From an uncultured Thermomicrobiales bacterium (GTDB lineage Bacteria; Chloroflexota; Chloroflexia; Thermomicrobiales; CADCWN01), in NCBI GenBank assembly GCA_902806415.1, contig CADCWN010000292.1, positions 1 through 41,217 of the forward strand: a stretch of DNA of 41,217 nucleotides, given 5' to 3'. Shown here piece by piece: positions 8,567 to 34,624 of the stretch. Below the pieces are notes generated by a model, which was given only the letters and a program-made list of their open reading frames with translations, had not been told where the DNA came from and did not search any database. Position numbers and translations under genes: made by a program. Within the stretch, counting starts at the first letter, position 1; each line of letters opens with the position of its first letter.

Positions 8567-8580
8567 GGTGGCCCCTTCGG

Positions 8581-8691
8581 GGAGTCGATAGTCGGTAGTC
8601 CGTAGTCCGTAGTAGAGGTCCGGTTGCTGGCACGGTGCTGCAACACTATCGCTCAGCCACTACGGACTACGGACTACCGACTACCGACTCC
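8581..8691. repeat. Heptad-unit hairpin, locus A
   Basis: Left arm 8581-8614 ggagtcgatagtcggtagtccgtagtccgtagta; right arm 8658-8691 is its reverse complement at about 32-33 of 34 positions; 43-nt loop. Confidence 0.9.
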
Positions 8692-9173
8692 CTCGCTAGC
8701 AGCGCCACGGCGATCGCGGCGATCCCTTCCTCGCGGCCGATGAAGCCGATCCGCTCGTTCGTGGTCGCCTTGATGCCGATCCGGTCGGTGGCGAGCCCCA
8801 ATGTCTCGCCGATCGCCGCGCGCATCGCGGCGGTGTGCGGCGCGATCTTCGGGCGCTCGGCAACGATCGTGCAGTCGATGTTGACGATCCGCCACCCCTC
8901 CCTCGCGAGGAGGTCGCGCACATGGGCCAGCAGGCGGCGGCTGTCGATGCCGCGATAGGCCGGATCGCTCGGCGGGAAATGCTGGCCGATGTCGCCCAGG
9001 GCGACCGCCCCCAGCAGCGCATCCATGATCGCGTGGAGGGCGACGTCGGCATCCGAGTGGCCGAGGAGGCCCCGCTCGGCGGGGATGGCGACCCCGCCGA
9101 GGACGAGCGGTCCCCCCGCGACCAACTGGTGGACATCGTAGCCGGTGCCGACGCGCATCTCTGGGGCGCTCAT
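8667..9173 (-). CDS. ispF: 2-C-methyl-D-erythritol 2,4-cyclodiphosphate synthase
   Basis: MRVGTGYDVHQLVAGGPLVLGGVAIPAERGLLGHSDADVALHAIMDALLGA...KATTNERIGFIGREEGIAAIAVALL. Its stop codon lies inside the locus A hairpin. Confidence 0.95.
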   Translation of the reverse strand: MSAPEMRVGTGYDVHQLVAGGPLVLGGVAIPAERGLLGHSDADVALHAIMDALLGAVALGDIGQHFPPSDPAYRGIDSRRLLAHVRDLLAREGWRIVNIDCTIVAERPKIAPHTAAMRAAIGETLGLATDRIGIKATTNERIGFIGREEGIAAIAVALLARESVVGSP

Positions 9174-17788: not shown

Positions 17789-17870
17789 CAGTCGTCAACA
17801 GTCGGTCGTCGGTCCTCAGTAGCGGTATCCCACTCGTCATGCGTCATGCGTCATGCGTCATGCGCTGTCC
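17789..17870. repeat. Degenerate heptad-repeat tract between the two flippase-like genes, locus E
   Basis: GTCGTCAACAGTCGGTCGTCGGTCCTCAGT... then cgtcatg iterated about four times (cgtcatgcgtcatgcgtcatgcgtcatgcg). Confidence 0.75.
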
Positions 17871-22464: not shown

Positions 22465-22555
22465 AGTCGTCAGTCGTCAGAAAGGGTAGCGCGAGGCTAT
22501 TGGCTCACTGGCTTGCCTTTTCTCACTGACGACTGACGATTGACGACTGACGACT
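22465..22555. repeat. Heptad-unit hairpin, locus B
   Basis: agtcgtcagtcgtcag...aaagg (22465-) versus cctttt...ctgacgactgacgattgacgact (-22555). Confidence 0.8.
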
Positions 22556-25249: not shown

Positions 25250-25360
25250 AGTCGCGAGTCGTGGGTCGTGAGTCGTGTGTGCATTACTGTGGCACGGCGC
25301 TTGGATCACAAGCACATTGTCTGAGGGACGATCTCATGACTCACGACCCACGACTCGCGA

Positions 25361-25362
<2 letters not shown>
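25250..25362. repeat. Heptad-unit hairpin, locus C
   Basis: agtcgcgagtcgtgggtcgtgagtcgtg (25250-25277) versus catgactcacgacccacgactcgcgact (25335-25362), 27/28 complementary. Confidence 0.92.
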
Positions 25363-27701: not shown

Positions 27702-29225
27702 TCACAGCCCCAGCAGCCCATAAATCCTCGGCATATCCAGGTGCTCGCGGAGGTGCGCGGCCAGGCGGTCGAACGGGTCGTCGGCGGTTGCGCGGCCCCA
27801 GTCGCGCGGAGCAACCCCCTTGCGGCGGGCGAGGTTGGTCAGGATGGTGGCGCGCAGGGGCGAGCTGTCGAAGAAGCCGTGCATGTAGGTGCCGACGATC
27901 AGCCCGTCGGCACTGATCGCGCCATCCGGCTCGTCCACGGCGACGCCCTGGCGTTCGTTCAACCGGAGAGTCGCGGGCAGGGGGCCGACCGTCTGGCCCA
28001 TGTGGATCTCGTAGCCGGTCGCGGGCAGGCCCCGCGCCCCGGCGAAGAGGCCATGATTGGCGCTGACAACGCCGCTGGCGCGGTCGGTCGTCTTCTCGCG
28101 CGCGAAGATGGTGCGGAGGGGCAGCAGGCCGAGGCCGACTGTCGCCGCCTCGTCCGACTCCACGCCGAACGGGTCGGCGATCGTCTCGCCGAGGATCTGG
28201 AAGCCGCCGCAAATCCCGATCGTCGGCGTGCCGCCGCGCGCCAGGGCGACGATCGCGCGGTCCAGCCCGCGCTCGCGCAGGGCGGCGAGGTCGGCGATCG
28301 TGCTCTTCGTGCCGGGGAGGATCAGGAGGTCCGGTGTGCCGAGTTGCGCGGCCTCGCCGACGAAGCGGACCCGCACCCCCGGTTCGTTCGCCAGCGGATC
28401 GAAGTCGTCGAAGTTACTGATCTGCGGCAGGCGGATCACCGCGATGTCGAGGACGGTCGGCCCGTTGGCGGCTTCGGCGTTCGGGCGGCGATCGAGCGCG
28501 ACCGAGTCCTCCTCGGGCAGTCCCAGCCGTGACAGGTGGGGGATGACGCCGAGGACCGGGACGCCGACCCGCGCGGTGATCATGTCGAGGCCGGGCCGCA
28601 GGAGCGCCACGTCGCCGCGAAACTTGTTGATCAGCAGGCCGCGCACGCGCGCTCGCTCGTCCGGTTCGAGCAGTTCCAGCGTCCCCAGCAGGGCGGCGAA
28701 GACCCCGCCGCGATCGATGTCGCCGACGAGCAGGACCGGCGCGTCGGCGAGGGCCGCGACCCGCATGTTGACGATGTCGCCCGCCCTGAGATTGATCTCC
28801 GCCGGGCTGCCCGCCCCCTCGATGATGACGATGTCGTGGGCGGCACGCAGCGTGTCCAGGCTCGCGGCGATCGTGTCGAGCAGGGTCGCGCGGTGGGTGT
28901 AGTAGTCGCGCCAGGGGAAGGTGCGCCAGACCTTGCCGCGCACGATCACCTGCGAGCGCATCCCCGCCTCCGGCTTCAGCAGGATGGGGTTCATGTCCAC
29001 GGTCGGCTCGATCCCGGCGGCGCGGGCTTGCGTCGCCTGCGAGCGCCCGATCTCACCACCGTCGATCGTCACGGCGGCGTTGAGCGCCATGTTCTGCGCC
29101 TTGAACGGGGCGACCCGGTAACCATCCTGGTGCAGGAGGCGGCAGAGCCCCGCGACCAGGACACTCTTGCCGACATCCGAGGCGGTCCCCTGGATCATCA
29201 GCGTCGTCGCCGGTCGTTGGCCCAC
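27702..29225 (-). CDS. cobQ: Cobyric acid synthase
   Basis: LMIQGTASDVGKSVLVAGLCRLLHQDGYRVAPFKAQNMALNAAVTIDGGEIGRSQATQARAAGIEPTVDMNPILLKP...GTKSTIADL...GICGGFQILGETI...YEIHMGQT...GTYMHGFFDS. Confidence 0.97.
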   Translation of the reverse strand: MGQRPATTLMIQGTASDVGKSVLVAGLCRLLHQDGYRVAPFKAQNMALNAAVTIDGGEIGRSQATQARAAGIEPTVDMNPILLKPEAGMRSQVIVRGKVWRTFPWRDYYTHRATLLDTIAASLDTLRAAHDIVIIEGAGSPAEINLRAGDIVNMRVAALADAPVLLVGDIDRGGVFAALLGTLELLEPDERARVRGLLINKFRGDVALLRPGLDMITARVGVPVLGVIPHLSRLGLPEEDSVALDRRPNAEAANGPTVLDIAVIRLPQISNFDDFDPLANEPGVRVRFVGEAAQLGTPDLLILPGTKSTIADLAALRERGLDRAIVALARGGTPTIGICGGFQILGETIADPFGVESDEAATVGLGLLPLRTIFAREKTTDRASGVVSANHGLFAGARGLPATGYEIHMGQTVGPLPATLRLNERQGVAVDEPDGAISADGLIVGTYMHGFFDSSPLRATILTNLARRKGVAPRDWGRATADDPFDRLAAHLREHLDMPRIYGLLGL

Positions 29226-29280
29226 CCTCGCCCCCTCGCTCCGTGCGCATCGTCTCAGCGCGGGATGATACCACCGGGGG

Positions 29281-29396
29281 TGGGCGGTCCGTAGTCCATA
29301 GTCCGTAGTCTGTAGAGTCTGGTTGCGGCACCACGCCTGTCTTCTGGCGATGAGCCGGAACGCGCGCTCTACAGACTACGGACTACGGACCGCCCA
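29281..29396. repeat. Heptad-unit hairpin, locus D
   Basis: tgggcggtccgtagtccatagtccgtagtctgtagag (29281-29317) versus ctctacagactacggactacggaccgccca (29367-29396). Left arm carries one extra 7-bp unit. Confidence 0.92.
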
Positions 29397-29480
29397 CTGC
29401 GTAGACAGAACGACCGCGCAGCGCCTACAATCCCACGGCACATAATGTGGCTAAGCTGGATGCGACGATGAGGGAGTGGC

Positions 29481-30140
29481 ATGGTACGATCGGCGGCTCA
29501 GGAGACGAATCTCTGGCTCGCGCAGGCGCTCTTCGATCTGGGGGGCGTGACGCTCGGCGACTTCACGATCGGTCGCACGACCGTCAACTCGCCGGTCTAC
29601 GTCAACCCGCGCGTGCTGATCAGCAATCCCGAGGTTCTGCGGCGCGTCGCCCGCCTGATCGACCGCGAGATTCAGGCCGGGATGTCGCGGAAGCGCGACC
29701 CGATCCCGCCGTTCGACCTGATCGCTGGCGTGCCGCTCGGCGGCCTCCACCTCGCCACGGCCTACGCGCTCGCGACGAATACGCCGATGATCTACGTGCG
29801 ACCGTCAGGCAGCCTGGCTGAGGGTGGCCCGAACGGGCATGAGATCGAGGGGCGTTTTAAGTCGGGGCAGCGGGTCCTGCTGATCGACGACCTGATCACC
29901 ACCGGCGGCAGTATCCTGCACACCCGCGCGATCCTCGAAGCGGCCGATCTGGTCGTCAAGGACGTCGTGGTGCTGATCGATCGCGAGCAGGGCGGCGGCG
30001 AGCAGTTGCGGCATCAGGGCTACGATCTGCTGCATATCTTGACCTTGCGCGCGATGCTGACCTACTACGTGAATACGAACCGGATCAGCGATGAGGACTA
30101 CGAGCGCTGCCTCGCCTATCTGGAGCGCACGCGGGAGTGA
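29481..30140 (+). CDS. Orotate phosphoribosyltransferase-like protein
   Basis: PPFDLIAGVPLGGLHLATAYALATNTPMIYVRP...GQRVLLIDDLITTGGSILHTRAILEAADLVVKDVVVLIDREQGGGEQL. Confidence 0.88.
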   Translation: MVRSAAQETNLWLAQALFDLGGVTLGDFTIGRTTVNSPVYVNPRVLISNPEVLRRVARLIDREIQAGMSRKRDPIPPFDLIAGVPLGGLHLATAYALATNTPMIYVRPSGSLAEGGPNGHEIEGRFKSGQRVLLIDDLITTGGSILHTRAILEAADLVVKDVVVLIDREQGGGEQLRHQGYDLLHILTLRAMLTYYVNTNRISDEDYERCLAYLERTRE

Positions 30141-31074: not shown

Positions 31075-31163
31075 GGGGCGTATTGCCTACGCCCGATCGA
31101 TGCCGGGGCTGTCTACAAACGTTTGCAGATAGGAGAGGTGGAAGGGCGTAGGCAATACGCCCC
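31075..31163. repeat. Inverted repeat ggggcgtattgcctacgccc / gggcgtaggcaatacgcccc
   Basis: 20-bp perfect inverted repeat, arms 31075-31094 and 31144-31163; caaacgtttg palindromes nearby. Confidence 0.92.
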
Positions 31164-31256
31164 TACCTCCGACTGTTGGGGGCATTCGTACACGCCGCAT
31201 TCTCCCCGAATTTGATTGCTGCAATGGCCCGTACCGTTTATCCATGAGGTGGAATA

Positions 31257-34323: not shown

Positions 34324-34474
34324 CGGACCTCACAGTTCTCGTGTGGCACAGGACGTTGTCGAGAGTATAGTGGCGGGAGCGCGAGTAGAGGCGCGGTCAT
34401 CCCCGCTATGTTATAACCGCTGAGGTTGCGTTTGGGCTGCATCGGTGCGTGGCGGATATTTACTGCGGTCGGTT

Positions 34475-34565
34475 GTAGGGGCGTATTGCATACGCCCGCA
34501 CGTCGTCCGCCCGCCCGCGTTCGCGAATCCCTCGGCGTGGGTGGGCGTATGCAATACGCCCCTAC
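34475..34565. repeat. Inverted repeat gtaggggcgtattgcatacgccc / gggcgtatgcaatacgcccctac
   Basis: 23-bp perfect inverted repeat, arms 34475-34497 and 34543-34565. Confidence 0.95.
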
Positions 34566-34624
34566 GCCCGACGGTGATCGGCGTCCGGCGAATGGTATCG
34601 ACATTTCATGGCGGGAGGGGCGCA

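Follow-up and report, generated by a model that had tools for sequence, protein, structure and literature searches.

Why does a long hairpin built of seven-base units stand between two divergent genes in this window (the whole stretch of 41,217 nucleotides that was analysed), and is it a regulatory structure belonging to these genes or one copy of an element dispersed through the genome?

Anatomy and surroundings of locus D

Locus D is a hairpin with heptad arms at 29280-29397 (118 bp), in the region where a preliminary description had placed it and reaching one base further at each end than the 29281-29396 given there. Its left arm (29280-29317) reads GTGGGC GGTCCGT AGTCCAT AGTCCGT AGTCTGT AGAG, and thus holds an outer clamp (29280-29285), which by its sequence pairs with GCCCAC at 29392-29397, and four heptads (29286-29313, no strand assigned). 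A 49-nt core of subfamily D occupies 29318-29366, followed by a right arm of 31 nt (29367-29397; three heptads and the clamp) that matches, base for base, the reverse complement of the left arm minus AGTCCAT. This heptad (29293-29299) has no counterpart on the right and forms a 7-nt bulge in the fold. Once it is taken out the arms are complementary at 31/31 positions, and the extra 7-bp unit, correctly assigned to the left arm from the outset, is therefore a clean one-unit indel. The two arms share the variant unit AGTCTGT. As RNA, the + strand of D folds at -86.3 kcal/mol compared with -47.9 +/- 3.7 in dinucleotide shuffles (z -10.3) and the - strand at z -9.4, a stability far beyond chance, which bears out the heptad hairpin first described.

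The divergent position also holds. To the left lies cobQ (27702-29225, - strand; 507 bits, above cut-off), and to the right an OPRT-like gene (29481-30140, + strand), for which the best OPRT model gives 117 bits, below cut-off. Just right of the hairpin is a promoter-like TAGACA-18-TACAAT of the OPRT-like gene (29402-29431, + strand). A homologue scan of the genome contigs for this gene returned distant organisms only. In G001, the only genome of the same family that we found, its orthologue is also preceded by both promoter-like hexamers, spaced further apart; cobQ is not adjacent to it there, and the site has a different neighbour and no heptads.

A simple terminator role had been judged a poor fit from the start, and our scan for a T tract or terminator at D found none; an intrinsic terminator (a G+C-rich stem followed by a T run) is ruled out by the missing T run. 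Searched against Rfam, D gave nothing at gathering level, its best sub-threshold match being a microRNA model far below that model's cut-off; no known structured RNA was thus recognized.

A regulatory hairpin specific to the cobQ/OPRT-like promoter region, whether a putative binding site, an attenuator or a regulatory RNA, would agree with the very stable fold on either strand and with a place between divergent genes beside a promoter-like element. We consider it very improbable in view of the lack of a terminator or Rfam match, the heptad-free G001 orthologue with its different neighbour, and the recurrence of the D core at unrelated loci. The likeliest view of D is that of an insertion tolerated close upstream of a promoter-like element; it need have no function.

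Heptad hairpins across the genome

The pattern GTCCGTAGTCCGTAGTC, with up to 3 mismatches, matches the 5.16-Mb genome 538 times and the reversed pattern 16 times, while the exact two-arm pattern gives 66 register matches per strand and its control none. By a strict rule, 74 heptad hairpins were found in the 0.89 Mb inspected, a sample partly picked by repeat matches, and the density carries that bias; a looser rule, applied to 81 kb of contigs that had been taken irrespective of hits, gave five hairpins, one of them a run of N. Arrays of 7-base units are mostly located in hairpins, and their classes include AGTCCGT, AGTCGGT, AGTCGGC, AGTCGTC, AGTCGTG, AGTCAGT, AGTGCCG, AAGTACG, AAGGTCG, GACGAAT and GGAACGC. 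AGTCNNN-type heptads occur in 51 of the 400 genomes sampled from the phylum, which gene content, relatives and replicon sizes lead us to regard as Chloroflexota, a survey in which the reversed pattern is an unclean control because other heptad classes match it.

The window itself holds further hairpins of the same class, namely locus A (8580-8692, between ispF and a D-aminoacyl-tRNA deacylase gene), an AGTCGTC-type hairpin (22465-22555) and an AGTCGTG-type hairpin (25250-25362). The ispF frame apparently enters the right arm of locus A (8667-8692) and stops there, so that the C-terminus of the protein may be heptad-encoded. A single unpaired CGTCATG array with 4.3 perfect copies lies at 17829-17866. 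A second palindromic repeat, GGGGCGTATTGCATACGCCC, present at 31138-31176 and 34468-34572, is unrelated to the heptads and recurs on many other contigs. Nested hairpins were seen at L105:705-844, L097:2377-2500 and L069:3317-3437; their outer arms are of one heptad class, and the inner left and right arrays that these enclose belong to two further classes, ordered similarly at the different loci.

On clustering, 46 of the 82 cores fell together into a loose group in which subfamilies can be made out and both orientations occur. The closest relatives of the D core are those at C303:6874 (locus L075; 32/39 identical, score 25) and C236:2269 (31 identical positions, score 20), against a maximum score of 18 in 5000 shuffles; C166:5410 and C175:10269 resemble it by inspection. 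The close match of the D and A loops noted in the preliminary description is real but short, at 15 aligned columns, and the alignment test finds it no stronger than chance alone can produce; the D core is closer to other loci than to A. Weaker core alignments extend to elements of other unit classes, and core and arms are separable parts.

Within unit classes, the arms of one element match at 0.934 compared with 0.893 for arms taken from class-mates, the maximum of 2000 shuffles being 0.911. Both arms are of the same unit class in 69 of the 74 hairpins, and some elements pair an arm of one class with an arm of a near class, as might be expected of intermediates. To judge from these sequences, the two arms of an element evolve together.

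Genomic positions and in-frame copies

By the simple gene calls made in this analysis, 59 hairpins have two called neighbours, which are codirectional at 45, convergent at nine and divergent at five, D included; set against all gaps of at least 60 nt, codirectional sites are in excess (p 0.015) and divergent ones in deficit (p 0.033). Many hairpins start no more than about 10 bases from a stop codon and leave 10-20 bases up to the start of the following gene. This tight spacing, together with the strong folds, could speak for resident structures under selection, in which a hairpin would be needed at gene junctions (for example, for protecting the upstream mRNA or decoupling translation) and pairing would be kept while the sequence drifts. 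The same spacing is also expected from insertion into short operon gaps, and cores that stand in both orientations argue against such a role.

A few hairpins lie in frame inside genes, where a junction role is also hard to reconcile with their presence. In this genome, a pair of paralogous membrane proteins is interrupted at one shared position by in-frame hairpins, built of GGAACGC units in one protein and of AGTCCGT units in the other; one of the two has a second insert that is missing from its partner. In GlyS, the loop after RYFPV is six residues long, and thus empty, in seven genomes of another family of the same phylum; many other genomes have it filled, in frame, with repeats or palindromes of diverse and unrelated units, which differ even within a genus (G115 versus G180; G088 versus G219). 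The linker upstream of GlyS has species-specific units in many of the genomes.

Homologous sites in related genomes

Homologous junctions in G001 were compared by joined junction queries, since reciprocal-best-hit synteny overlapped in 11 pairs only. A fixed rule recognizes a tandem-unit hairpin at 4 of the 11 homologous junctions, compared with a base rate of 12.8% among G001 spacers (p 0.04), and inspection by eye gives about six; under the rule, sites are shared with G001 only marginally more often than the base rate predicts. The units in G001 are other 7- or 8-mers than those at the same junctions here. With gene pairs named from the sequences and not from a family search, the sdhA-sdhB junction has AGTCGTC here and the 8-mer TAGTCGGG in G001, tal-zwf has AGTCCGT and AGTCGGCT, pgk-tpiA has AGTCGTC and AGTGCTG, and sufB-sufD has GACGAAT and GCGGATT, respectively; two more homologous junctions in G001 also have hairpins. 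At the G001 loci L200 and L203, 8-base units (AGTCGGGT and AGTCGGCT) stand where this genome has 7-base units, the unit length itself having changed in every repeat. The two sufB-sufD junctions have a conserved inner hairpin in common (alignment score 34, against at most 20 in 100 shuffles) and differ in their arms, which would make them the best single case for rewriting in place. At most sites the hairpins could instead be independent insertions into a tolerant spot.

Other sites are empty. One homologous junction in G001 is a 17-nt spacer without an element, a paralogous junction in G001 is empty as well, and G001 lacks heptads at the ispF site where locus A stands here; in three genomes of other families, spacers measure 10 nt or less at 9 of 13 compared junctions. 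The preliminary description had taken occupation of every sister-genome site by the same element, with no cognate transposase, as favouring a resident regulatory structure. The outcome is mixed: in the same-family genome the sites are often, not always, occupied, and the hairpin units differ. Such same-site occupancy is neither classical fresh insertion nor conserved regulatory sequence.

Hairpins with compensated arms at several homologous G001 junctions do lend something to the idea of resident structures under selection. Empty homologous and paralogous sites, and the short spacers at 9 of 13 junctions in other families, weigh against it, and together with the in-frame copies and the two core orientations lead us to think it rather unlikely. 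A related idea, that the class is defined by its shape, its hairpins being long fixed in place while a dedicated writing or copying activity swaps the unit of both arms lineage by lineage, we hold to be unlikely as well, and a shade more so.

Mobility and turnover of the arms

The earlier suggestion of a MITE-like insertion element fared well in part: cores are dispersed and lie in both orientations, homologous sites can be empty, and in-frame copies have empty homologues. The empty homologous sites occur in another genus and in paralogues; no empty site was found within one species. Neither a target-site duplication nor a cognate transposase was found. Matches between the flanks equal those of shuffled pairs; the borders are estimated, and arm turnover might mask a short duplication. 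The RAYT link that had been proposed did not materialize, the genome's two Y1_Tnp genes having no heptads in their flanks. These genes (L031 and L032, at C215:11954 and C122:43725) are flanked by palindromes of their own, such as GCCGATTGAAATCGGC, and form a REP-like system separate from the heptads. No autonomous transposon with heptad ends was seen in the 0.9 Mb inspected. No reverse transcriptase was found in the assembly, and retron, DGR and group II intron routes are therefore unlikely.

For a classical MITE or REP-type element with a specific transposase, the same-site hairpins of relatives would be independent insertions into hot spots. Dispersed cores, lineage-specific units and a single GlyS loop filled time and again, with units unrelated to one another, are what it would lead one to expect. 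It sits badly with the different palindromes beside the two Y1 transposase genes, with the absence of a target-site duplication and of a reverse transcriptase from what was searched, and with sufB-sufD, where the inner hairpin is homologous and the arms are different; we find it distinctly improbable.

The account we favour, and believe to be probably correct, treats D as a single copy among many miniature hairpin elements that are dispersed and probably non-autonomous, and whose arms turn over by slippage and inter-arm copying. Dispersed cores, mirrored arms, the one-unit indel, homologous sites both empty and filled, and different units at the same site are seen directly. An element, as proposed, consists of a core of about 45-60 nt and two flanking arms, each a tandem array of short units of 7 bp or sometimes 8. 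The elements would occupy tolerant DNA, that is, gaps between a stop codon and the next RBS, gaps between divergent genes, and in-frame linkers of proteins. Copies have spread within the genome, as cores common to unlinked loci show, presumably with the help of an enzyme, and resident elements would persist while their units change. Slippage within an arm may bring gains and losses of one unit, and hairpin-mediated template switching may then copy the change into the other arm, giving the same new unit in both; the extra AGTCCAT at D would fit one slippage event not yet mirrored. In operon copies, a strong RNA hairpin could alter message stability.

If this is true, heptad hairpins form a natural record of slippage and of copying between arms, palindrome rewriting becomes measurable in genomes, and the hairpins account for a patchy but sizeable share of intergenic and linker DNA in the phylum. 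Conserved position and conserved pairing need then not imply a conserved regulatory RNA. Of interest beyond the window are hairpins that retain their place and shape and not their sequence.

Comparison with known systems

REP/REPIN sequences with their RAYT (TnpA-REP) transposases, in GTAG- and CGTC-tagged families (PMC3733652), are likewise abundant, dispersed and mostly intergenic palindromes, and occur in some Chloroflexota. A REP has a stem of 5-13 bp, a loop of 2-20 and an unpaired tag, GTAG or CGTC (PMC3733652), whereas heptad elements combine tandem-heptad arms of about 20-40 bp with loops of about 45-60, lack a constant tag and showed no association with a RAYT. D itself has 31-bp arms and a 49-nt core, and other unit classes are without GTAG. 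We rejected REP/REPIN membership on stem, loop, tag and transposase.

MITEs (reviewed in PMC10969869) are also short, non-coding and dispersed, intergenic or in frame, and have terminal inverted repeats, as do the dispersed heptad copies. They differ from the heptad elements in that the latter have neither a target-site duplication nor an autonomous partner that was found, and in that the inverted repeats here are tandem units varying by copy and by species. MITEs are the nearest known kind; with one defining feature not seen, the elements are not filed among them.

The TAACTGA heptamer repeats of Beggiatoaceae and Cyanobacteria (PMC4679880) are many-copy, intergenic 7-bp tandem repeats as well, but they are direct repeats, inverted in hardly any case (one indirect repeat among 169 sets), with one fixed unit, in contrast to the paired arms and many units found here. 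Template-switch (quasi-palindrome) mutation (PMC8794818, PMC7202029) resembles our proposal in that the two arms of an imperfect palindrome are made identical in one event, and is a published route to perfect stems (PMC8794818); it is a mutational process and not an element, and leaves dispersal unexplained.

Rickettsia palindromic elements (PMC10969869) share with the heptad elements the habit of standing in frame in housekeeping genes. In-frame insertion of this type into conserved protein genes is seen in GlyS and the two membrane proteins, not at D itself. The Rickettsia families are about 150 bp long, with conserved sequence and peptide, whereas the heptad units differ between species at the same site. 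The heptad elements work like dispersed, tolerated palindromes of the kind that the Rickettsia elements represent; units replaced in both arms at sites that are kept are unusual among known mobile palindromes.
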